From assembly GCA_010015675.1 (NCBI GenBank), contig ML977001.1, positions 3,320-67,319 of the forward strand: DNA of 64,000 bases, in the 5' to 3' direction. Position numbers and translations under genes: made by a program. Within the stretch, counting starts at the first letter, position 1, and each line of letters begins with the position of its first letter. The notes beneath the pieces were generated by a model that saw only the letters and a list, made by a program, of their open reading frames with translations, was not told the origin of the DNA and made no database searches. The DNA is from Byssothecium circinans. Its lineage: Eukaryota > Ascomycota > Dothideomycetes > Pleosporales > Massarinaceae. Shown one piece after another: positions 289-21,813 of the stretch.

Positions 289-1147
289 CTGATTTTGTGT
301 ATACAACACTAGAAAAACAACTCTGTATACGATTTACGCCTCTCTTAATAGCCTTAACTTTAAGAACCATCGATTTCTAGCCTAAAACCCTCGAAAATAC
401 CCTCGTTGTATAGGGATTTGTATGGGTGCGGGGTATCTTAGTGGTTCGCTTACCTCAGCGCGCACGAATTATTGCGACACCTAGTGACGCTGACAGCTAT
501 GCTTACGTGGCTGTAATGAAAGAAGGCGTAGCAAATTTGCCACGACAAACTATTAGATGGCCGACCCGCTCCTGCCACACCCTTGTGAGGTGGCGAATCT
601 ACAAGAGGTGAGCTGGTCGATAGGGAAGCAGAATGTGATCGCAAGGCAGCGGGGCATACGTCGGCCCGAAGACTTTGCACAGCCACAGGCAGGACAGCCA
701 CAAACCTATTTTGCGGCTGGCGGCCGCCCTCCGTTAGATTACGTTACGATTATGTGGCACTTCTGTGCTAGCTAGAATAGGTAATTGTCCCAATCAGAGG
801 TACCAACTCAGATGGCGGCCCTGTATGAATTGAGCGCGCCTTACAGCCTTACGGCTAATTATCACTCCTTACTTTTACTATTAGACTTGCAGGCCTGTAT
901 AAGGGTATTTTATCAGTCGCGATAGCAGTATTGGCGTAGTAGTGGCCTATATTAGGCGAGGGTCGCTTTCGCTATAAAGACAAGCTCTCTACAATTTAGG
1001 CGGGCGGGCGCCCATGCAAACGTATTTTTTGTATTGGTATAGTGACGAGGGCTTAGAAGTTGTCTGAGCACATTATAAAATAGGAGTATCGCAAAAATTA
1101 CGGCGCGCGCAAGCTTACTGTTGCTGCGAAGTCAAAGTACCGATGAA
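289..1147. other. no gene seen (transposon-rich spacer)
   Basis: The stretch between two transposase relics has only short open frames without recognisable protein similarity. It is probably flanking or degraded transposon sequence, but I could not assign it to a family. Confidence 0.5.
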
Positions 1148-1182
1148 TTGTTCCGTTACGGTGGTTGTTCCGTTACGGGTGG
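1148..1182. repeat. 17-bp tandem duplication at the relic's 5' edge
   Basis: The unit TTGTTCCGTTACGGTGG is present twice in tandem (1148-1164 and 1165 onward, the second copy with one extra G). It marks the point where the pogo-like coding similarity begins, so it may be part of the truncation junction. Confidence 0.6.
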
Positions 1183-1995
1183 ATGGACGTTATTACGCTT
1201 TGTATGCCTGCGCACTCATCACACATCCTTCAGCCGCTTGATGTGGTGTTATTCTCGCCGCTCAAGCGCAAGTACTCTAAGACTATTCGGAACTTGGCGC
1301 GCCAACACGTCTTTCACGTTAACAAGGAAGCGTTCCTACCAGCCTTTAAAGACGCGTTTTCAAGCGTATTTACGGTTCAGAACTGTCGAAAGGCCTTTGA
1401 GGCAACAGGGCTAGTCCCTCTGAACGCGCAGGTGGTGCTTAATCGCCTTAATGTGCGTATACGCACCCCGCCAGGACCCCCACCACTAGAGACGCCGTGG
1501 CAATCAAGAACACCGAGTAATACACGCGAATTTGGCTTACAGTCAAAGCTAGTACGTAATTCTATTACTTGGTCACCACGGACGGCTCAGGGTGGGCTTT
1601 CGCAGCTCGTCAAAGGCGCTGAGTTGATGCTGCATGGTAGCGCGCTGATGAAGGCGCGCATTGAAGAGCTTGAACAGCAACTTGCAGTAGTAACCAAGCG
1701 AAAAACACGCAAGCGCAAGTATCTTTAGAAGGGCGGCACTATGGAGTATGGTCCTACAGCAGACCAGAACGGTTCTGAACCGTCAGGAACTGTTCAGAAC
1801 CGTAAGAGGGCGAGGGTGGAGGGTGAACGTGAAGTGCGACAACCAGGTGTTCGCCACTGCGGCAACTGCGGTAAGGCTGGGCATAACGCGAGAACGTGTC
1901 AAGCAGATGAAGAGGGTTCTTCTGAGTCGGAGGCTAGTACTCAGTTTATCATGTCAAGTAGTGATGCGGACGATAATGGCGATGAAGTTGAGTGA
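1165..1995 (+). pseudogene. pogo/Fot1-like transposase relic with CCHC zinc knuckle
   Basis: The frame contains PAHSSHILQPLDVVLFSPLK, the motif with the third catalytic Asp of DDE_1 (pogo/Fot1) transposases, followed by a coiled-coil-like segment (about 1640-1710) and a CCHC zinc knuckle (CGNCGKAGHNARTC, about 1858-1899). Such knuckles are known at the C-terminus of several fungal pogo-type transposases. A TAG at 1726-1728 separates the two parts, which are in the same frame, so this is one reading frame with one nonsense codon. The DNA-binding domain and the first two catalytic Asp residues are missing, so the copy is 5' truncated. Its sequence differs clearly from the complete element just downstream. 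Confidence 0.75.
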
Positions 1996-2095: not shown

Positions 2096-2165
2096 AGCTA
2101 GCCTATATAGATTCCGGCCACCAGGGGTTTCCGGCCACATCGCCAAATCGGCCACCCCTCAGAAA
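2096..2165 (+). repeat. terminal inverted repeat, left, pogo copy A
   Basis: These 70 bp match the reverse complement of 3812-3881 with one mismatch. The inner part contains CCAAATCGGCCACCCCTCAG, which is also shared with copy B. Confidence 0.92.
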
Positions 2166-2198
2166 ATCACGCGTTTTCTCTCCACGCAACGCATCAAA

Positions 2199-3785
2199 AT
2201 GGATAACCGCGAAATCGCAATTCAATCAGCTATTAACGATCTTAATGCTGGCATTTACAAAAGCCAGAGAGCAGCTGCAAAGGCCTACGGGATCCCTCGA
2301 ACAACGTTGCAGGATCGATTACACGGTGCAACCAACGCGCGAACCAGCCATCAATGGATGCAGAAATTGACCCCCCTACAAGAGGATTTCCTTGTGGATT
2401 GGATCCTCGAAGAGGACGCTCGCGCCTGCCCTCCCTCCCACGCGCGCGTACGAGAAATGGCAAATCGAATCCTGCGGTCGAATGGCATAAACGAGCCAGG
2501 AGGCAAAATATGGCTATCCTCCTTCCTTAAGCGCAACCCACGCGTCGCCTCTGTTGTGGGTAGGAAGATAGAGGCTGCGAGAGCTGAGGGAGCAACTCCA
2601 CAGCAGATCTGCGCGTTTCTTGAGCTCTTTGAGAGGCTGCGTGTAGACCTGGGTATACTAGCTGAGGATACATGGAATATGGACGAGACTGGCAAGGCCC
2701 TAGGCGTATGTGCAAACACCAGAGTACTCGCGAGTAGTCGAAAAAGGAAGGCTTACTATCAGTCTCCAGAGAATCGCGAGTGGGCGTCGATAATCGAGTG
2801 CGTTTCTGCAACAGGGAGAAAGCTGCGGCCAGGGATCATTTTCAAAGGCAAATACTTGCAGAGCACCTGGTTTCCATCAACTATACCTGACTGGCTATAC
2901 GCAACGTCAGAGAATGGCTGGACATCTAACGCGATTGGCGTTGAGTGGCTGCAACGCGTATTTCTGCCAGAAACTGCGCCCGCAGAGGATCGCTGGAGGA
3001 TGCTGATTTTGGATGGCCACGGCAGCCATGTGGACCTGGATTTCCTGTGGATCTGCAAGCAGAATAAAGTCAGGTTACTGTTTCTCCCTGCTCACTCATC
3101 TCACGTTCTGCAGCCCCTGGATCTCTCTGTTTTCTCAGTAGTGAAACGATTCTATCGCCAGCAGATCCAGGAGTTATCACACCTAGATGATGCCGCGCCA
3201 GTCAAAAAGGAACGTTTTATTATTGCCTACAACGCTGCCAGAGAGGCTGCGATTACTGAGAGAGTAATCCGCGCAGGATGGGCTACTGCAGGCATCTGCC
3301 CGTTGAATATTGCGCGCGTTGTCAACTCATCTCAAGTTGCTCAAAGGCCTGTTACCCCCCCTCGCCAGGATCAGGCTCATCTCGCTGAGAGCTCTCTCTC
3401 TACTCCCCATGGCCCTCGGGATCTGTTTATAGCTCGAAGGGCGCTCCACAGCGCTGAGAAATTAAGCCGCAGCGCTCACCAACTGTTTGAGAAAGCTGGC
3501 AAGGCAATTGCAGAGGCAAATACGCGAGCAGCAGAGGCTGAATCAAGGGCTCAGCAATTGCAGGCGCAACTTGAGGCCCTTAGGCCTCAACAGCCACGAA
3601 AGAGGGTTCGCATAGACCCAAATCAACGCTTTGCAGATATAGATACAATCATGATTGCAGTGCAGGCATCTGCGCTTCTACAGGAAGAAAACGATAACAA
3701 TTCTAAAGAAAAGGAAGCAGAAAAAGCTGCAGCTGAAATAGCAGCAAAAACTCTGCAATCTATGTGTACAGAGTGGCAATTGTAA
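2199..3785 (+). CDS. pogo/Fot1-type DDE transposase, intact
   Basis: The 528-residue protein catalyses cut-and-paste transposition. Order of parts: an N-terminal psq-type helix-turn-helix (about residues 5-50, with QRAAAKAYGIPRTTLQDRL), a CENP-B/Tc5-type DNA-binding domain (about 60-130), then the DDE_1 catalytic domain. Visible catalytic Asp motifs are NMDETG, ILDGHGSHVD and LQPLDLSVF. A helical, Ala/Glu-rich tail (about 420-500) looks like a coiled coil. The start at 2199 lies 103 bp inside the left end and is conserved in copy B. There is no stop, frameshift or intron. The nearby relic at 1165 belongs to a different subfamily, since it ends in a zinc knuckle that this protein lacks. Confidence 0.93.
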   Translation: MDNREIAIQSAINDLNAGIYKSQRAAAKAYGIPRTTLQDRLHGATNARTSHQWMQKLTPLQEDFLVDWILEEDARACPPSHARVREMANRILRSNGINEPGGKIWLSSFLKRNPRVASVVGRKIEAARAEGATPQQICAFLELFERLRVDLGILAEDTWNMDETGKALGVCANTRVLASSRKRKAYYQSPENREWASIIECVSATGRKLRPGIIFKGKYLQSTWFPSTIPDWLYATSENGWTSNAIGVEWLQRVFLPETAPAEDRWRMLILDGHGSHVDLDFLWICKQNKVRLLFLPAHSSHVLQPLDLSVFSVVKRFYRQQIQELSHLDDAAPVKKERFIIAYNAAREAAITERVIRAGWATAGICPLNIARVVNSSQVAQRPVTPPRQDQAHLAESSLSTPHGPRDLFIARRALHSAEKLSRSAHQLFEKAGKAIAEANTRAAEAESRAQQLQAQLEALRPQQPRKRVRIDPNQRFADIDTIMIAVQASALLQEENDNNSKEKEAEKAAAEIAAKTLQSMCTEWQL

Positions 3786-7462: not shown

Positions 7463-8051
7463 GGAAGGGGAGTTTGGAGATCGGAGTTTGGGGGCGGATG
7501 GGTGGGGGGATTTTGGGGTGGAGGGGAGGTTGGATTCTGAGATACCCACGAGTTGTTCAACTCGGTTTCGTTCGCTTACTGGAGGTTAGGGGGTGGGGGC
7601 TGTGTTTGTCGTTTGTATCGAGGGGCGTATTTGCATGGAGGGCGTGTTTAAGGTATCGGTTTTCGTATGTTGAGTGGGGGACGTGTCTGAAGAAAGAAGA
7701 GCAAAGCAACGCAGAAGAAGAAGTGGGGACTACAAGCCATGACGCTGCAAGCCAGCCTCTGATGGAACCTAGGATCATCCAATTAGCCGAGGGAAACATA
7801 GTCATATGGTAGCAACAAGAAATCTACTTGTGAATTCAAATAAGATAGGAAGCATGTCGCCTTGGTGTACCAAAGAGGTTCGAACACACTCCGTCGTGCC
7901 TGGATGAGCTAGAGACATTGACTATAGTCAAAGCGCTTAACATATTATTCTAGTGCTTGAACACAAACTCATCACACCTACATCTACATCATCCTCGCCA
8001 AAGCCCCTCATCCTCCTCCATCTCCCCAGATCCCCCCATCCACCACCCTCC
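7463..8051. other. intergenic, no gene seen
   Basis: The region between the 3' ends of two convergent genes has no supported coding frame. It presumably holds both terminators and 3' UTRs. Confidence 0.5.
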
Positions 8052-9684
8052 CTACCCCTCAAACACCTTCCCGGTACTAACATTAACCCTACTCCACCCC
8101 CTCCCCCCTATCAGCGCCCCCACAAACACCCACGGCCAATAAACATGATACAACACCAAAAACGGCACGGGATCCCTCACCATAAATGTGCCATCCCTCC
8201 ACCTCCAGCTGGCAACATGTTCGCCGAACGCGAGCCAGCTGTTGAGGACCTCCTCCACGCTGGTCAGACCCCAGAGCGCGTCGAGGAGAGGGAGGACGAG
8301 CAGGGTGACGAGGTCGTGGCCGAGGTAGTAGGTTTTGGGCGTTGGGGGGCGGGGCGATATAATTTAGGATGACATTGAAGGGGAAGGGGAAGGGGGATCG
8401 AAGATGGATAGATATGCGGAAGCCAGTTCCGGAGTCGAGGAGAAGAGAGATACAGCAGTGTGAGCGCGCGGATTACACTCGATAGGGAAAAATCTCCACC
8501 TCCGCCTCATTCATCTCCCCACGCATCCCCCCAGGAACTAAAAAATCAAAAGACAAAGGCCCCGAAAACCCCATCCCCCCATCCCTCGCCACTTTCTCGG
8601 TAAACCGCAACATAGCCCTCGCCAGCGCACTCTCCGCCGGCAGCGCGCGGTAATGCATCAAGAGCTCCTTACTCGGACACGCGACGAAGGCCTTGACACG
8701 GCCGCGGATCACGAGCGCATGGGTACAGTACTCGGCTCCCTGGATGAAGCGCTGGAGTTGGAAGGCGTCGGCGGGAGTGATGGCGAGGTTTTTAATGTAG
8801 TTTTTCGTTTCTTGCGGGGTGTGGAGGGGGAGGTGTGTCATCATTGCGTTGCGGGCGCGGTCGTTCACGGCTATGGGTTTGAGGATGTAGGTCTTTTTCT
8901 TTTTCTCTTTCCTTTTCTCCTCTTTCTCTGTGGCCTCGGTGTCGGCGTACGCGTGTCCCTTCTTACCCTCACGCTCTGCTTGCTTCGCATGTCCATTTCG
9001 TTCAGCAGCAGGTAAAAGGATGGAAAGAACTTCCTCTGCACTCCTGCACCGATGACTCTCCGGCACCGCAAGTCCCAGCTCGCGAATATACTCGATAAAT
9101 TTATCCTTCTCGTGCAATTTCTCCACTACATCCTGTCGGAACTGCACCGCTTGGAACTCGTCGCCCATAGCTTCCTCAGCTAACCTAACGACGGTGCCGT
9201 CTTCGACAGCGGCAACGACGCTGGAACAACTAATCCACAGATCCACCCCTTCTTTCTTGATAGTTTCCAGCAAGGAGCCGATGTACGGTTCCGCATCATT
9301 TCCATCGGGTGGGGCCAGTTTGCGGAACGCGGAGAGCGAGTTTGAAAAGCGACCTGGAGAGAGCGTGGAGGTGTCGGCACCGATGATGCGGTGCGGTGTG
9401 TGGTGGGAGAGGAGGCGGGCGATCGTGAGGCCTTTGCTCATGGAGACGCCGGTCACGAGGATGGTTTTGAGAGGGCGGTTGAAGCCATTGGGGTGTTGGG
9501 GTTGGAGGGGACGGGGTGGTGGGTTGAGTTTGGTGTGGAGGAGGCTGAGGAGAACGAGGGTGGTTGATATTGGAAGGGTTATTATGCTGAACAGGATAAG
9601 GAGGACGTTTTTAGGCACGTGATTGTAGTAGAATGGTTGTCTCGTGTTGCGGGTTGGAGGAGCTTCAGCGTCTGGGTCTGTCAT
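8052..9684 (-). pseudogene. membrane-anchored ATP-grasp ligase, mycosporine (MysC-type), disrupted
   Basis: An open frame from ATG at 9684 gives 403 residues: a membrane helix (about 26-48), a Rossmann-like start (TILVTGVSMSKGLTIARLL) and an ATP-grasp core. It ends abruptly at 8473. The family's catalytic motif, IECNPRAHTAVSLF, follows at once but in another frame: one extra base in the T5C3 run at about 8486-8493 explains it. In that second frame a TAA at 8364-8366 interrupts again, yet the same frame then encodes a plausible hydrophobic C-terminus to 8052. No GT-AG intron removes either lesion. In mycosporine synthesis an ATP-grasp enzyme joins an amino acid to 4-deoxygadusol; that role here is inferred from the neighbours. 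If translated, the product lacks the metal/ATP-binding end. A homopolymer sequencing error remains possible for the frameshift alone. Confidence 0.7.
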
Positions 9685-10185
9685 GGTGGATAACGTGACG
9701 ACGCGATTCGTAGCGTGTAGTGGAGTGACGGGTCAAGGATCACGGCTGATTGACATGAGGAAGGGCAGAGTTGGCTAGGCAGCTAGGGAATAGAAAGAGT
9801 GGGAAGCTGGCAGGTACCTAGATCTTTGGTTGCACTGCGGTTCCTGTTGCCTTTGTGAAATACGCATTAATGAAAGCGGGTTCGTGATTTAGTCTATACG
9901 TCATTATTAGCGCTTGGCCGTTGAGTGTGTCCCACAAATTGGGATAGGCTGGATATTGAGTGGTTGGAGTGGATTTTCGTGAGGTTTGCTTGTGTAGCTT
10001 TTGTTAAGGTCGAATGGTTGACGGATGTTTTGTTGGTCACATACGTATATCTTCCGTGGTCAAGTGATGTTGTTTTGAATTCCGCGTCACTCGACTGAAA
10101 AACGAGCATAACTGAGGATGAGAATGAAGTGGATGGAGATTCGGAGAGTCCTCAATTGCCTTTTACATCTCTGTACCACGGCCAT
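9685..10185. other. intergenic, promoter region of the ATP-grasp gene
   Basis: About 500 bp between two genes on the minus strand. It should carry the ATP-grasp promoter and the methyltransferase terminator. No specific site was recognised. Confidence 0.5.
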
Positions 10186-11338
10186 CTATTCCTCTACGCC
10201 AACACACCTCGTGATCTCAACGCCATCCTACAACTCGTCAGCAAACACTCCTACACAACGCCACCTCCAATAGATCTTCAACTCACCGGTACACCCGTAG
10301 GTTCAAAGCTGTTCACCAACTTACTCTCATACACCAAATTCGGATTCCCCAAACTCTGACTAAACTTCTCCTCCTTATACCGATTAGCATACTGCTTCAC
10401 ATTCCTCTCCGCGATCCCATCAACATTACCCCCCTTCTTCCCCTTTTTGACATTCTCTCTCTTTTGCTGCACCGTACTCCTCACATACTCCAAATACGGC
10501 GGATTACCGGGCTTGATCACATTATCGGCCGCGAGCACGGATCCAGGCGTAACGAGTTCAAGTTCTTCGCAGAGCTTGAGATCGGTTGTGTAGGCAGGCT
10601 TGTAGTGGTCTAGGAACATGAGGTCGATGTGCTTGAGTGCGCCTGTAGATTGAAGTCGGGCGATGGATTCGTCACTGGATCCTACAATGACTTTGACGAC
10701 GCCGGAGAGCCCAGCGAGGTCAACGAGCGACATAATTACGGCGGCGAATTCGGGGTTGCGCTCGAGACTGAAGTACCGCTGGCCACCTGCCGCGCGAACT
10801 GCGTCGCCGAAGAGGATGCAGGAGTATCCTACGTAACCGCCGAGTTCGACCTGATAAAATTGTTAAATATGGCTTCTGGAGGATTCAGAAGGTTATCTAC
10901 CATCGTTTTGGGCTTCACTCCAGAGATCAAGTCGGTGACAATACGTCCCTTGTCCTCACCCACATTCATCAGATACTTCTTCGTCCGCCCAAACTCATCA
11001 ATAGCAGCCAAAACATCCTTTGGCGAGCCGCGAATCTTGTCGAGGTTGGGATGCGAGTATACAAAGTGTAGAAGCTCAATCTCACGTCCATCATCGAAGA
11101 ACGTTTCTTCTTGCGGCGCATACGCCTTCGCCTCGTCGAAGCTGTCCATGTTGTCCAAGAAATTGAGCTCTTTCGAAGAGAGCTCGGGGTAGCTACGCGT
11201 ATGATTTCGTCTGGGGGAGCTGCTGGAGCTTGACGCGTAACAATTAGCGCGATACAGCCAAAGAAATGACGAAAAGCAGTTGTCACGACACTTCTCCCCG
11301 CCGTGCCGTGTATCCCACGCGCACAGTCTAATCGTCAT
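10186..11338 (-). CDS. COMT-like O-methyltransferase, mycosporine cluster (MysB-type)
   Basis: Model: complement(join(10186..10227, 10287..10850, 10901..11338)), 347 residues. Introns of 50 and 59 bp have good sites (the second starts GTGAGT), and the last 42-nt exon restores the family ending DGVEITRC after FEPTGVP. The SAM-binding loop is VELGGYVGYS (147-156). Catechol-O-methyltransferase-type metal ligands are visible as Asp227 (FLDHYK), Asp255 and Asn256 (AADN), with Lys230 as the likely catalytic base. Known mycosporine enzymes of this class methylate demethyl-4-deoxygadusol to 4-deoxygadusol; that substrate is inferred from the adjacent synthase and ATP-grasp genes. The start is uncertain: Met64 (11149), just before the conserved SFDEAKAYAPQEETFF, is the main alternative. 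No lesion seen, unlike both neighbours. Confidence 0.8.
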
Positions 11339-12043
11339 TCTTTAGGCGAATGGATTAGAAAGTCATTTCATGATTCCTCTTCCAAGCTTTGGCGTTGAAC
11401 AAGGCCCGTATGGAGTGCTTTGAAACACTATGTCATGGCCATGTGGGGGACAACGCTGGTTTTGGTGTGCAATTCGGTGGTACAAGAAATCCACACGGAA
11501 TCGCATGTGGGTCTACTCATTCGTCGTTGGGGAGTGTATGAGAAGTCTTGACGTGAAGGCCGGCAATGGCTGTCGTCGACGACTTCATCTCCACATTTCC
11601 AATGCTAAAAGTCGGGTGCCCGAACCGACCCGGGTGACACAAGGAGATCGTACCTCATCACTAACCTTGTAAGGAATGAATCTACAACGATTCCAGATCG
11701 CAAGAACTCTATCCGCCCGGGACGGGAGCTAAGATCTTGCAGCACGTCACTTGAAAGGATGTGTCTAGATGGTCGTCGAACGAGGGGTTTCTATGGAGCT
11801 CAGTCCATGAAACATTACAGGAATAGGATTGGGAAGGCGTACCAAAGCTACGTTCGCGAATGTATCCCGCACCAGTTACACAGCATTTGTTTCTTCAATA
11901 CCAGAACAGAAACCCGGCAAAGTGATGAAGGAGTGATGGATACGGAACGCTTACGGGCTCTGGTGTCGTAGTCTCGCCCTAGCACTCTTAGCGCAGGCAG
12001 ACTAAACCTATCCCGTTGCCGACGAAAACCTTCGTCGCTATTA
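11339..12043. other. intergenic, no gene seen
   Basis: The upstream region of the methyltransferase, up to the TA target site of pogo copy B (12042-12043). Only short unconserved frames are present. Confidence 0.5.
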
Positions 12044-12113
12044 AGCTAGCCGTAATAGCTTTCGGCCACCTAGACCTTTCGGCCACAACACCAAATCGGC
12101 CACCCCTCAGAAA
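12044..12113 (+). repeat. terminal inverted repeat, pogo copy B (low-coordinate end)
   Basis: The 70 bp match the reverse complement of 13760-13829. The repeat begins AGCTAGCCGTAATAGC and ends CACCCCTCAGAAA. Confidence 0.9.
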
Positions 12114-12139
12114 TCAACGTAATAATTCAGCCAGCCTAG

Positions 12140-13726
12140 TTACAATTGCCACTCAATACACATAGATTGCAGAGTTTTTGCTGCCACTTCTGCTACCAGT
12201 TTTTCTGCCTCTTTTTCTTTATTAGGACTTTTGTTTTATTGCTCCATAAGGGCAGAAGCCTGCTTAGCTATCATGATTTAATCTATGCTGGCAAAGCGTT
12301 GATTTGGGTCTATACGAACCCTTTTCCGTGGTTATTGAGGCTTAAGGGCCTCAAGTTAGCTTTAGAGTCTTTTATTCTCTGCTTTTAGCGCTACTGAGCG
12401 TGTATTTGCTACTGCAATTGCCTTGCCAGCTTTCTCAAACAGTTGGTGAACCTTACGGCTTAATTTCTCAGCGCTGTGGAGCTGCCTTTGAGCTATAAAC
12501 AGATCCCAAGGGCCGCGAGGGGTAGAGAGATGGCTCTCAGCGAGATAAGCTTAATCCTGGCGAGGGGGCGTAACAGGCCTTTAAGCAACTTGAGATGAGT
12601 TGACTACGCGCTTAATATTTAATGGGTAGATGCCTGCAGTGGCCCACCCACTATAAATCACTCTCTCAGTAATCGCAGCCTCTCTGGCAGCGTTGTAGGC
12701 AGTAATAAATCATTCCTTTTTAACTAGGGCGGCATTATCTAGGTAGGATAACTCCTAGATCTGCTGGCGATAGAATCGTTTTACTAATAAGAAAACTGAG
12801 AGATCCAGGGGCTGCAAAACGTGTGAGGAGTGCGCAGGGAGAAATAGAAGCCTAACCTTATTCTGCTTGCAGATCTATAGGAAATCTAGGTCCACATGGC
12901 TGCCGTAACCATCTAAGATTAGCATCCGCCAGCAATCCTCTGAGGGTGCAGTTTCTGGCAGAAATACGCGTTGCAGCTACTTAGCGCCAATCGCATTAGA
13001 TGTCCAGCCATTCTCTGAAGTTGCGTATAGCCAGTCAGGTATAGTTAATAGAAACCAGGTGCTCTACAGGTTTTTACCTTTAAAAATAATCCCTGGCCGC
13101 AGCTTTCTCCCTGTTGCAGAAACGCACTCGATTATTAACGCCCACTCGCGATTCTCTGGAGACTGATAGTAAGCCTTCGTCTTCTAACTACTAGCGAGTA
13201 CTCTAGTGTTTGCACATACGCCTAGGGCCTTGCCAGTCTCGTCCATATTCCACGTATCCTCATTGCGTATATTCAGCTTAACGCGGACCTGCTCATAGAG
13301 CTCAAGAAACTCGCGTATTGCCTCCTGAGTTGCTCCCTCAGCTCTCGCAGCCTCAATCTTCCTACCCACAACAGAGGCAACGCGTGGGTTGCGTTTGATG
13401 AAGAAGGATATCTATAGTTTGCTCACTAGCTTATTATCGCCATTCAATCGCAGGATTTGATTCGCCATTTCTCGTGCGCGAGCGTGGGAGGGAGGGCAGG
13501 CGCGTGCGTCCTCTTCGAGAATCCAATTTGCAAGAAATTCCTCTTGTAAGGGGGTTAATCGCTGCAGGTGTTGAAGGCTACGGCGCATATTGGTACCGCC
13601 CTGCAATCGGTGCTGTAACGTAGTTCGAGGGATTGCGTAGGCCTTTGCAGCCGCTCTCTGGCTTTTATAAATGCCAGCATTGAGATCACTAATAGCTGAT
13701 TGAATTGCGATTTCACGGTTATCCAT
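12140..13726 (-). pseudogene. pogo/Fot1 transposase, inactivated by point mutations
   Basis: The frame is collinear with the intact transposase of copy A: ATG lies 103 bp inside the element and the stop at the equivalent place. The first 104 codons read well (helix-turn-helix QRAAAKAYAIPRTTLQHRL). A TAG then replaces the Trp of the conserved IWLSSFLKRN segment (13412-13414). The frame resumes with VGRKIEAARAEGATQEAIRE and keeps the first catalytic motif NMDETG. It stops again at 13184-13186. The remaining part is AT-enriched and full of stops, though the last residues (LQSMC, EWQL) are still recognisable. TGG to TAG is the change expected of repeat-induced point mutation, but related copies would have to be aligned to prove RIP. 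Confidence 0.9.
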
Positions 13727-13759
13727 TTTAATGCGTTGCGTGGAGAGAAAACGCGTGAT

Positions 13760-13829
13760 TTTCTGAGGGGTGGCCGATTTGGTGTTGTGGCCGAAAGGTC
13801 TAGGTGGCCGAAAGCTATTACGGCTAGCT
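13760..13829 (-). repeat. terminal inverted repeat, pogo copy B (high-coordinate end)
   Basis: Partner of 12044-12113, followed by the TA target site at 13830-13831. Confidence 0.9.
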
Positions 13830-13831
13830 TA

Positions 13832-14265
13832 CCGGCCCTTTTTTTACTCCCAAGATGCGAATTCGGCACTATTCGCATCCAACAAATCCAGAATGCCATG
13901 GAATCGCAAGAGGTCCGAGCACGCAATTCGGCACCTCCAGATTGTCTGTCCGCTTGTAAAAGTCATTTCATCATGCTGTTACCTTGAGGGCTTAGTGTTT
14001 GCATGTACCGCACGTGAAGTCATCCGATGGGCGTGGAGTGATGGGCAAAGCGGCTACGTATGGTTGACGTTATTGATACGTGTTTCCTGGCGTTGCAGTG
14101 TGCTAATCTAATGTAGGGTGTACTATGGAAGCGGAAATGAGTGCAGAAGCATATAAGAGGGGATTCGTTATATAATCTCTTAGGTGTCCCCAGGTTTTGG
14201 TTCACGCAGGACCTTCCAACTATCCCCATTCAATTGCATAGCTTTTTGTTTACCAACTCTTCACC
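13832..14265. other. intergenic, presumed synthase promoter
   Basis: These 434 bp lie between the end of pogo copy B and the synthase ATG. The transposon therefore sits close upstream of that gene. No regulatory motif was recognised. Confidence 0.5.
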
Positions 14266-15834
14266 ATGTCTGAAATGAAGGCTACCGTCATTGAGACCAA
14301 GAACGGTTTCCACGTCGAGGGATACGAGAAGATCGAATACGATTTTACGTTCCTGGATGGAGTTTTCAACACTGAGAACACACAGCTCGCCAAGTGCTAC
14401 GAGCGCTGGGGTCGCTGTCTCGCTGTCATGGACCTGAACATCTTCAACATCTACGGTAGCCAGATGCAGAAGTACTTCGACCACCATGGTTTGGAATTGA
14501 GAATTCACAAGACCATGATTGGCGAGAAAGCTAAGTCGATGGAAACGCTGTTGGGCATCGTGGACTCCATGACCGACTTTGGTATCATTCGAAAGGAACC
14601 TGTTTTGGTCGTTGTATGTTGATGTTGTAGTCGCTGTCATTTCCTCGCTAACACCTGTTAGGGAGGAGGCCTCGTTACCGACGTTGCTGGGTAAAGCTTT
14701 GCCCACCGGTCCATCGCTGAAGAGCAATTCTAAGGCACTCTAGCCTCTTGCTCTTTAAGAACGTTATGTTAACTTTGTGGTCCAGATTTGCCTGCGCGGC
14801 CTACCGAAGAAACACTAACTTCATACGTATTCCCACGACCGTCATCGGCTTGATTGATGCCAGTGTCAGCATTAAAGTCGCCGTAAACTACGGCAACTAC
14901 AAGAACCGTCTTGGAGCCTACCATGCGCCCATGCACACCTTTTTGGACTTTCAGTTCCTGAGAACACTCCCTGAAGGCCAGGTTCGCAATGGCTTCGCTG
15001 AGTTGATCAAGATCTCAAGCTGTGCTCATCTTCCCACATTTGATTCGCTTGACAAGTTCTGTGAGAAGTTGATCTCGACAAGCTTCGGTCGCTCCAATGA
15101 CACTACTAGCGATGCTCGCCAGGCTGCGGATGAGATAAATCGCGCCGGTATCTTTGAGATGTTGAAGCTGGAGACGCCAAATTTGCACGAAATTGGTCTT
15201 GACCGAGTGATTGCCTATGGCCACACCTAGAGCCCACTTCACGAGTATGTCAATGCAATGTAACTGATTACTTCCGCTTACCATAGAATAGCTCTCTCCC
15301 AAGGTGCCGCTCCGCCACGGCGATGCCATTTCCATCGATATGGCATACTCAGCAACCCTCGCGAACCAGCGCGGACTCCTTAGTAACGAAGAGCACCACC
15401 GAATTCTGAACCTGTTCTCGCGCGCAGGTCTGTCCATGGACCACGAGCTCTTCGACGAAAACATGCTCGACAAGGCCACCAAGGCCATTCTCAAGACCCG
15501 CGATTGCAAGCTACGAGCTGCTGTCCCGAACCCGCTCGGTAGCTGTGTCTTCTTGAACGACGTGTCGGCAGAGGAGATGAACGCCGCTCTACGACGGCAC
15601 AAGGAAGTCATGAAACAGTACCCGCGCAACGGCGAGGGTATTGACGCTTTCGTTGATGCAAGTGATACTGGCTACACTGTCAACGATGTACCTGTTGAGC
15701 AGGCCGCTTTGAACGGAAAGATGGCGAATGGCGAGACGAACGGACACACCAACGGCCACATGGGGTGCAATGGCATCCTAAATCCTCTGCAGCAAGGACT
15801 GGCCAACGGCTATTCCAACGGTTACAAGAACTGA
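14266..15834 (+). pseudogene. DHQ-synthase-like demethyl-4-deoxygadusol synthase (MysA-type), disrupted
   Basis: Exons are 14266..14613, 14662..14690, 14786 onward (introns 48 and 95 bp) and a last part ending 15834. Sugar-phosphate-cyclase hallmarks are the NAD-binding GGGLVTDVAG (spliced), [20 protein letters not shown], and LRHGDAISIDMAYSATLA after the third intron. The enzyme class converts sedoheptulose 7-phosphate to demethyl-4-deoxygadusol, the first mycosporine step. Two lesions are visible. A TAG at 15228-15230 replaces the Trp expected after VIAYGHT. Also, the third intron (about 15245-15291) cannot be spliced in frame: GA|GTATGT at the donor needs a G that has no usable AG before it. 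The stop removes the downstream His ligands and the C-terminal domain. The Asn/Gly-rich tail (about 15705-15831) is unusual but in frame. Confidence 0.8.
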
Positions 15835-16714
15835 ACGTCTGATCGATTGCGGAGGAAAAAGATGAAAAGCGAACGTCGTTGAACGTGACAGCAGAAAAAG
15901 TTTCCGGGTTGGCTGCCTCGACACCCACGCCATGGATTTTAGATAGCATTTTACTTCAATACAAAGAGAAGAGGATTCTCACATATTCACGCTGGCGTCA
16001 TCACAAATCTTACCTTGCCAGCGCTTCTGCGTAGTACTCTGCGTAGTGCTACTCATCGTGATGTCCTCCAAAAAATCGACACCGCCGCCCCCTTGCCATC
16101 AATTAAGACGACCCACGGAACAGCAGCTTCCTAATGGAGTTTTGCTCTCCGGAGCCACGCCACCGAAGTGACTGGCAACCAAAAGCAAAGGTTGTGCGTA
16201 ATGGTCGTGGCTGGCTCCGTGATACTTTTTGATAAAGAAGGAAAAGCGGGAGGGCGAGGGTTCGGCGAAGATTTTATGCTGCTGTGTGCCAAGGTGCTAG
16301 ACTGGAAACGGTTACCATACCCTGGTACCAGGCGCTAGGCACGAACTTTGAACTTGGTGTCGATGGCAATGTGGCTCTTCGAATGTAATGCTATTGGATT
16401 ATTGTATAAGGTGATAGTTTGCTTTGAGCCGCACGCTAGCCTCCCAATATTGATATAGACACACAGGATGCAAATCAAGTCATAGTCAGCTTCTCAAGAG
16501 CCTGCATGTCCGTAGGAAGCTTCGGAAGCAATTGCATTTCATAACCAAGCTCTCTGACGCTGTATATCAAATATGAAAGTATTGTGACACATGAATATTC
16601 TAGTATCAAACACACTTTCCGTATCCCCATCCAAGCCGGTCCGGTCTATTGGCACTATATCACTCCGGGGACAGTCCCACCACAACTCCCCCTCATGTCC
16701 AAAATGCTAGCCGT
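15835..16714. other. intergenic, no gene seen
   Basis: Convergent region between the synthase relic and the MPC1 gene. No supported coding frame. Confidence 0.5.
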
Positions 16715-21135: not shown

Positions 21136-21690
21136 NNNNNNNNNNNNNNNNNNNNNNNNNNNNNNNNNNNNNNNNNNNNNNNNNNNNNNNNNNNNNNNNN
21201 NNNNNNNNNNNNNNNNNNNNNNNNNNNNNNNNNNNNNNNNNNNNNNNNNNNNNNNNNNNNNNNNNNNNNNNNNNNNNNNNNNNNNNNNNNNNNNNNNNNN
21301 NNNNNNNNNNNNNNNNNNNNNNNNNNNNNNNNNNNNNNNNNNNNNNNNNNNNNNNNNNNNNNNNNNNNNNNNNNNNNNNNNNNNNNNNNNNNNNNNNNNN
21401 NNNNNNNNNNNNNNNNNNNNNNNNNNNNNNNNNNNNNNNNNNNNNNNNNNNNNNNNNNNNNNNNNNNNNNNNNNNNNNNNNNNNNNNNNNNNNNNNNNNN
21501 NNNNNNNNNNNNNNNNNNNNNNNNNNNNNNNNNNNNNNNNNNNNNNNNNNNNNNNNNNNNNNNNNNNNNNNNNNNNNNNNNNNNNNNNNNNNNNNNNNNN
21601 NNNNNNNNNNNNNNNNNNNNNNNNNNNNNNNNNNNNNNNNNNNNNNNNNNNNNNNNNNNNNNNNNNNNNNNNNNNNNNNNNNNNNNNNNN
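21136..21690. other. assembly gap (555 N)
   Basis: The bases are all N. The open frames that appear to cross it are artefacts. Confidence 1.

Positions 21691-21785: not shown

Positions 21786-21813
<28 letters not shown>
21786..21813. repeat. homopolymer of 28 G
   Basis: An uninterrupted run of G 96 bp after the gap. Its true length is likely uncertain because such runs are poorly sequenced. Confidence 0.95.

Follow-up and report, generated by a model that had tools for sequence, protein, structure and literature searches.

The mycosporine gene cluster of the ascomycete Byssothecium circinans (Pleosporales, Massarinaceae) has very probably been inactivated recently. The cluster lies in the window, a 64,000-nucleotide stretch of contig ML977001.1 from a 48.4-Mb assembly, the one genome of the species used here. 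It comprises MysA, the gene for desmethyl-4-deoxygadusol synthase (DDGS), MysB, the gene for a COMT-like O-methyltransferase (OMT), and MysC, the gene for an ATP-grasp ligase (ATPG). In the intact pathway, DDGS cyclises sedoheptulose 7-phosphate, OMT methylates the cyclised compound, which yields 4-deoxygadusol, and a mycosporine forms when the ATP-grasp enzyme attaches an amino acid or an amino alcohol (PMC10057719). In B. circinans, the first step of the pathway is predicted to be dead because DDGS is truncated, and the last because the ATP-grasp gene is frameshifted, and no replacement copy of either gene was found among the best candidates scored in the genome. A pogo-type transposon inserted between the divergent MysA and MysB genes probably also disturbs their promoters. 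We infer from the sequence that the enzymes are inactive and that the pathway has been lost.

The probable loss is a natural one and looks recent. What these UV-absorbing compounds do in fungi (UV screen, spore physiology) is still under study, and B. circinans, in which the first and last steps are broken, offers a ready comparison for its sister species. We found no published account of the B. circinans locus among the titles and beginnings of abstracts searched, a coverage that left most subscription journals outside. The coordinates of the features are collected in Table 1.

Table 1. Features of the B. circinans cluster (positions in the window)
Feature	Position	Strand	Basis
MysC/ATPG, ATP-grasp ligase, pseudogene	8052..9684	-	homologue matches
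In-frame TAA in MysC, variable column	8364..8366	-	homologue comparison
MysC frameshift in a T5 run immediately preceding the PIECNPRAH motif	8483..8490, about 8487	-	homologue comparison
MysB/OMT, COMT-like O-methyltransferase, intact, 284 aa	10186..11149	-	exons 11149-10901, 10850-10287, 10227-10186
Intergenic region of the divergent MysB and MysA, presumably with a shared promoter region and made longer by the pogo element	11150..14265	.	comparison with Phaffia IGR1 (PMC10057719)
pogo-type DNA transposon, 1,786 bp, broken transposase frame	12044..13829	-	check of terminal inverted repeats and TA, comparison of copies
MysA/DDGS, desmethyl-4-deoxygadusol synthase, pseudogene	14266..15834	+	exons 14266-14613, 14662-14690, 14786 onward
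In-frame TAG at the invariant tryptophan of the GHTWSPLHE motif of MysA	15228..15230	+	homologue alignment
Region of MysA intron 3, with the canonical donor GTATGTC at 15245	15245..15291	+	splice-pair trial

Gene content and layout of the cluster

The homologue search proposed in the preliminary description was run with all three proteins, and the matches were fungal DDGS, O-methyltransferase and ATP-grasp relatives. The MysA exons carried PF01761 and PF24621 (sugar phosphate cyclase), and the best matches among those listed were fungal DDGS-type proteins. The Massarina eburnea MysA protein (P0002) was 89% identical to that of B. circinans. When this intact protein was compared with PDB entries, the top match was 5tpr (510.8 bits, 2.4e-152), with 231.5 bits for 4p53 and at most 108.6 bits for 3-dehydroquinate synthases. 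Entry 5tpr bears the PDB name 3-dehydroquinate synthase, and we take it to be the Anabaena DDGS. The Massarina eburnea protein also has the motif stretch that is diagnostic of DDGS versus 3-dehydroquinate synthase in PMC10057719. The MysB protein carried PF01596 and PF13578 and was up to 83% identical to proteins of other Pleosporales among the matches listed. MysC matched fungal proteins called ATP-grasp by some sources, and its relative P0122 matched NCBIfam PRK06849 below the family cut-off; no Pfam family was reported for MysC, and no PDB relative came below E 0.9.

Fungal relatives were compared as protein or gene models, not as DNA. The conservation counts were made with the 119 best-listed homologues of 3,268 matches for MysA, of 1,937 for MysB and of 1,145 for MysC; the species' own models were left out and metagenomic models were included. 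For the prokaryotic comparison, genomes were scanned with the Massarina eburnea MysA protein, which gave 195 relatives; the best 80 loci were kept, 79 of them with cyanobacterial titles.

The layout was compared with that of Phaffia rhodozyma, in which the pathway was established by deletion mutants and expression in yeast (PMC10057719). The two clusters have in common the three genes, their order, and a DDGS gene divergent from the OMT and ATPG genes, and the Phaffia intergenic region between DDGS and OMT is thought to house both promoters (PMC10057719). The motif RVIA.GHTWSP is also shared with Phaffia DDGS, and a further likeness is that the cluster stands near the end of a contig, at a distance of 14 kb (PMC10057719). 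The OMT and ATP-grasp genes of B. circinans are adjacent and DDGS diverges from them; of the three frames that are intact in a mycosporine cluster, those of MysA and MysC are broken. By its gene content and layout, the cluster is thus to be read as a pseudogenised member of the fungal MysABC (DDGS-OMT-ATPG) set. The preliminary description had recognised this three-gene set at this place and had assigned it to mycosporine synthesis. Both statements held, with a cyclase of the 5tpr type and with the gene set and divergent layout of the proven Phaffia cluster (PMC10057719).

This kind of loss is already known, as some Phaffia strains are without the cluster and make no mycosporines (PMC10057719). 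The B. circinans case differs in its small lesions and in the transposon, affected by repeat-induced point mutation (RIP), in the shared intergenic region. In the non-producing Phaffia strain CBS 6938, about 26.3 kb are missing (PMC10057719), whereas B. circinans retains the cluster, with small lesions that break two of its genes and with the transposon between DDGS and OMT.

Orthologous MysABC proteins were found in other Pleosporales (for example Periconia, Paraphaeosphaeria and Parastagonospora), and in Boeremia exigua and Pleosporales sp. CAS-2024a the C, B and A genes are numbered consecutively. The gene models of other Pleosporales, which alone were compared, pass through the motifs that are broken in B. 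circinans. In the 80 prokaryotic loci, which correspond to cyanobacterial mysABC, MysA relatives had a median identity of 55%. A MysC relative lay in the DNA retrieved around MysA at 72 of the 80 loci (median identity 31%), and MysB relatives were weak, being detected in 19 of the 80 (median identity 23%). In the actinobacterium Rhodococcoides trifolii (locus L048), relatives of all three proteins stand side by side, and its MysA is 58% identical to the fungal protein. Ten of the 120 listed MysC matches (741-827 aa) had an O-methyltransferase fused to the ATP-grasp protein, which may be real fusions or merged gene models (P0130, P0134, P0142, P0162, P0173, P0177, P0192, P0195, P0201 and P0215).

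Lesions in the DDGS and ATP-grasp genes

The frame of MysA was compared with those of its homologues. The first two frame breaks of MysA were normal GT-AG introns (introns 1 and 2); the TAG and the defect at intron 3 proved to be real lesions. The TAG falls in a column with tryptophan in 119/119 compared homologues and in 80/80 prokaryotic loci, and it truncates MysA after residue 273 of about 459. With the canonical donor of the third intron, the last exon is out of frame whether a CATAG or an AATAG acceptor is used. We tried 26 GT-AG pairs for this intron, with donors at 15100-15259, acceptors no farther than 15339 and a minimum intron length of 41 bases. An open frame resulted from two of them, each at the cost of the conserved VIAYGHTWSPLHE block. 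Residue 290 of MysA is aspartate, at a position where histidine was found in 119/119 compared homologues and in 77 of the 80 prokaryotic loci (glutamine in 1, pattern unmatched in 2). The deposited MysA model (P0001) is one of the open-frame splice variants and lacks 13 residues at the GHTWSP block. The histidine of this motif, conserved in 119/119 compared homologues, is presumably a zinc ligand, by analogy with 3-dehydroquinate synthase. Because it is lost from the deposited model, the product of that model is expected to be dead too.

The MysC frame was compared in the same manner. The results showed a frameshift ahead of the invariant IEC/SNP motif, in which I, E, N and P were each present in 119/119 compared homologues, and a later TAA, which bears out the inactivating lesions described for the last gene. 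A search of the genome with an intact MysC relative recovered both the frameshift and the TAA. A 6-bp duplication that leaves the frame of MysC unchanged produces WRWR at 8190-8207. The TAA was considered as a RIP product of CAA, and this was unsupported, as glutamine stood at the column in 1 of the 119 compared homologues. The deposited MysC model (P0121) has 399 aa and is also cut at its start; its introns bypass both lesions and thereby remove the SFDFL and GHD segments.

Reading all the frame breaks of the cluster as introns held for MysA introns 1 and 2 and for both MysB introns, and failed for the rest. Since the deposited DDGS and ATP-grasp models bypass the lesions by false introns, surveys of annotation would score the pathway as present, and public gene models can in this way conceal pseudogenes.

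The MysB frame reads through its three exons, and both introns are ordinary GT-AG introns. The protein was 100% identical over 99% of the query to the deposited 284-aa model (P0241), in agreement with the methyltransferase having been called intact. When four lesions were placed by gene length, MysB was left untouched with a probability of 0.37. Because chance alone gives this value, the intactness of MysB needs no special cause. The suggestion that the loss had been caught midway is weak for the same reason.

Second copies of the three genes were sought in the genome, with the best candidates only being scored, and none was found for MysA, MysB or MysC. The only other DHQ_synthase match in the genome was a 1610-codon frame on another contig (C40), which, judged from its length, is presumably the pentafunctional AROM gene.

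Competing explanations and age of the probable loss

Several points weigh against a recently inactivated mycosporine cluster. The column of the MysC TAA is variable (among 119 compared homologues, T in 40, E in 22, D in 11, and other residues). Where a site is strongly conserved, in at least 97% of homologues, departures were mildly raised in MysA (4/241, rank 6/120) and MysC (5/149, rank 7/120), with 0/117 (rank 62/120) in MysB. Some listed homologues depart more than MysA and MysC do, so that this excess is weak. Two of the four lesions, one of them in the T5 run, are of the single-base indel type, for which an origin in assembly error is conceivable.

The last point leads to the explanation that the cluster is functional and that its lesions arose as errors of sequencing or assembly. 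A 555-base N run elsewhere in the window would agree with it. However, the other two lesions are stop codons, which an indel error does not make directly, and one of them stands at an otherwise invariant codon. MysA also has aspartate in place of the conserved histidine, and MysB, though flanked by the two pseudogenes, has no lesion. The window has five long frames that are open from stop to stop, namely those of PEX1 (1211 codons), ECM29 (1103), the molybdenum cofactor sulfurase (810), MCM7 (683) and a UBX-domain protein (625), and these argue against assembly error, although they lie 20-48 kb from the cluster rather than adjoining it and none was compared residue by residue with its relatives. 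In the genome as a whole, 19/19 scored ABC_tran matches (of 133 candidates) had no internal stop. On balance, we regard error in the sequence as an unlikely source of the lesions.

Another explanation is that MysA is conditional, its UAG being changed to UGG by adenosine-to-inosine (A-to-I) editing of the mRNA in sexual development, as in PUK1 and AMD1 of Fusarium. Such editing is known from Sordariomycetes and Pyronema and is not known from Dothideomycetes. The stop is a UAG exactly at the tryptophan of the relatives, and a false intron was annotated over the AMD1 UAG (PMC5496914), as it was in the deposited MysA model. Mycosporines are also tied to fungal sporulation (PMC8656575). However, editing would not mend the out-of-frame MysA intron 3, the MysC frameshift or the MysC TAA, and the RNA fold around the MysA stop was unremarkable (z 0.30), and we give this explanation hardly any credence. 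It is also conceivable that the pathway was lost while MysB was retained by selection for another methylation. MysB is free of lesions, none of its strongly conserved sites is changed, and in both relative-rate comparisons that reached P < 0.05 the MysB of the window was slower than the homologue compared. Against this stands the chance probability given above for a lesion-free MysB, and selective retention seems very improbable. Recent inactivation of the whole pathway, with MysB spared by chance, is the reading we prefer.

For the age of this inactivation, we used 52 relative-rate (Tajima-type) comparisons (13 for MysA, 21 for MysB and 18 for MysC). In none of them was the gene of the window significantly faster; two had P < 0.05, in both of which the MysB of the window was the slower sequence, and the power was low. 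These low-power comparisons thus gave no faster rate of the kind that would point to old decay. The MysA model of Massarina eburnea is intact at the position of the B. circinans stop, and on these models the MysA stop is one that postdates the split from Massarina eburnea. Because there was no rate acceleration and the Massarina MysA model is intact, the loss of the cluster looks recent relative to the Massarina split. With an excess at conserved sites that is only mild, the recency proposed in the preliminary description was retained.

Massarina eburnea, the closest species for MysA, was absent among the 120 listed MysB and the 120 listed MysC matches, in which many more distant Pleosporales were present. 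It may have lost MysB and MysC, or it may have unusual models (length filter).

The pogo element and repeat-induced point mutation

The transposon that had been placed between the methyltransferase and synthase genes was confirmed as a pogo element. Its terminal inverted repeats (TIRs) are 70 bp long and perfect, and a TA stands on both sides (12042-12043 and 13830-13831) as the target duplication. The element sits about 0.9 kb from the start of MysB and 0.43 kb from the start of MysA. The transposase of the cluster copy has an HTH domain and many stops, and it is 80% identical over all 562 residues to an HTH+DDE_1 frame at 2097-3782. The family has at least 74 matching stretches in the genome, TIR pieces included (40 of 194 candidates scored). 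The 562-codon frame is kept by 3 of the 30 copies compared (L004, L012 and L013). L012 is the copy at 2097-3782 (+), a second member of the family in the window, in which this frame is uninterrupted; a DDE_1 fragment of another element lies at 1147-1725 (+).

The open-frame copy L004 is 97% identical to the cluster element. Between the two there were 53 substitutions, of which 47 were C>T or G>A and 37 were in a CpA/TpG context; the cluster element bears a RIP signature. This spectrum was apparent only in the direct comparison with L004; most of the other copies compared are RIP-affected. RIP has acted in this genome, because RIP-type indices were strong in the copies L010, L011 and L030 (TA/AT 1.65-1.89; (CA+TG)/(AC+GT) 0.50-0.78). 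At the thresholds applied, the cluster element passed only one of the two indices. The flank on the MysA side (0.71; 1.33) passed neither, and that on the MysB side (0.75; 1.01) passed one of the two, narrowly. None of the 1-kb windows from 8001 to 16000 (n=8) passed both indices; some windows elsewhere did.

RIP leakage from the pogo element is a possible, unproven cause of the MysA stop. The inserted element would have become a RIP target, and leakage of RIP over 1.4 kb would have created the nonsense codon in the sole DDGS gene, a course of events that we consider doubtful, though less so than the alternatives to inactivation weighed above. Read on the opposite strand, the stop is a CpA-to-TpA change, and 1,399 bp separate it from the element. 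Of the weighted single-step paths by which MysA can gain a stop, 15% are changes of this kind, and for this reason a single RIP-type stop is weak evidence for leakage. At the conserved sites changed in MysA (residues 3, 213, 290 and 351), no single C>T or G>A step explains the codons.

Leakage of RIP has been reported in Neurospora at 930 bp or more from the border of a repeat, and it has been proposed to occur in Leptosphaeria maculans (PMC2973834). The B. circinans cluster resembles the L. maculans case in that a RIP-affected repeat neighbours a single-copy gene carrying a nonsense change of the CpA-to-TpA type (PMC2973834). It is unlike that case in having one RIP-type lesion in the cluster, 1.4 kb from the element, the other changes at conserved MysA sites being of non-RIP type. 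If leakage were the cause, a metabolic pathway would have begun to be lost through genome defence and not through drift alone, and defence against repeats would be linked to loss in secondary metabolism.

Among the matches listed, the telomere pattern was found at the ends of other contigs and none was on the contig of the cluster, the first 3,319 bases of which, exactly those ahead of the window, read as N. Elsewhere in the window, the 555-base N run, an assembly gap or a withheld stretch, lies at 21136-21690 and is followed by a 28-base poly-G at 21786-21813; the apparent drop in GC at 21-22 kb is due to these two tracts.

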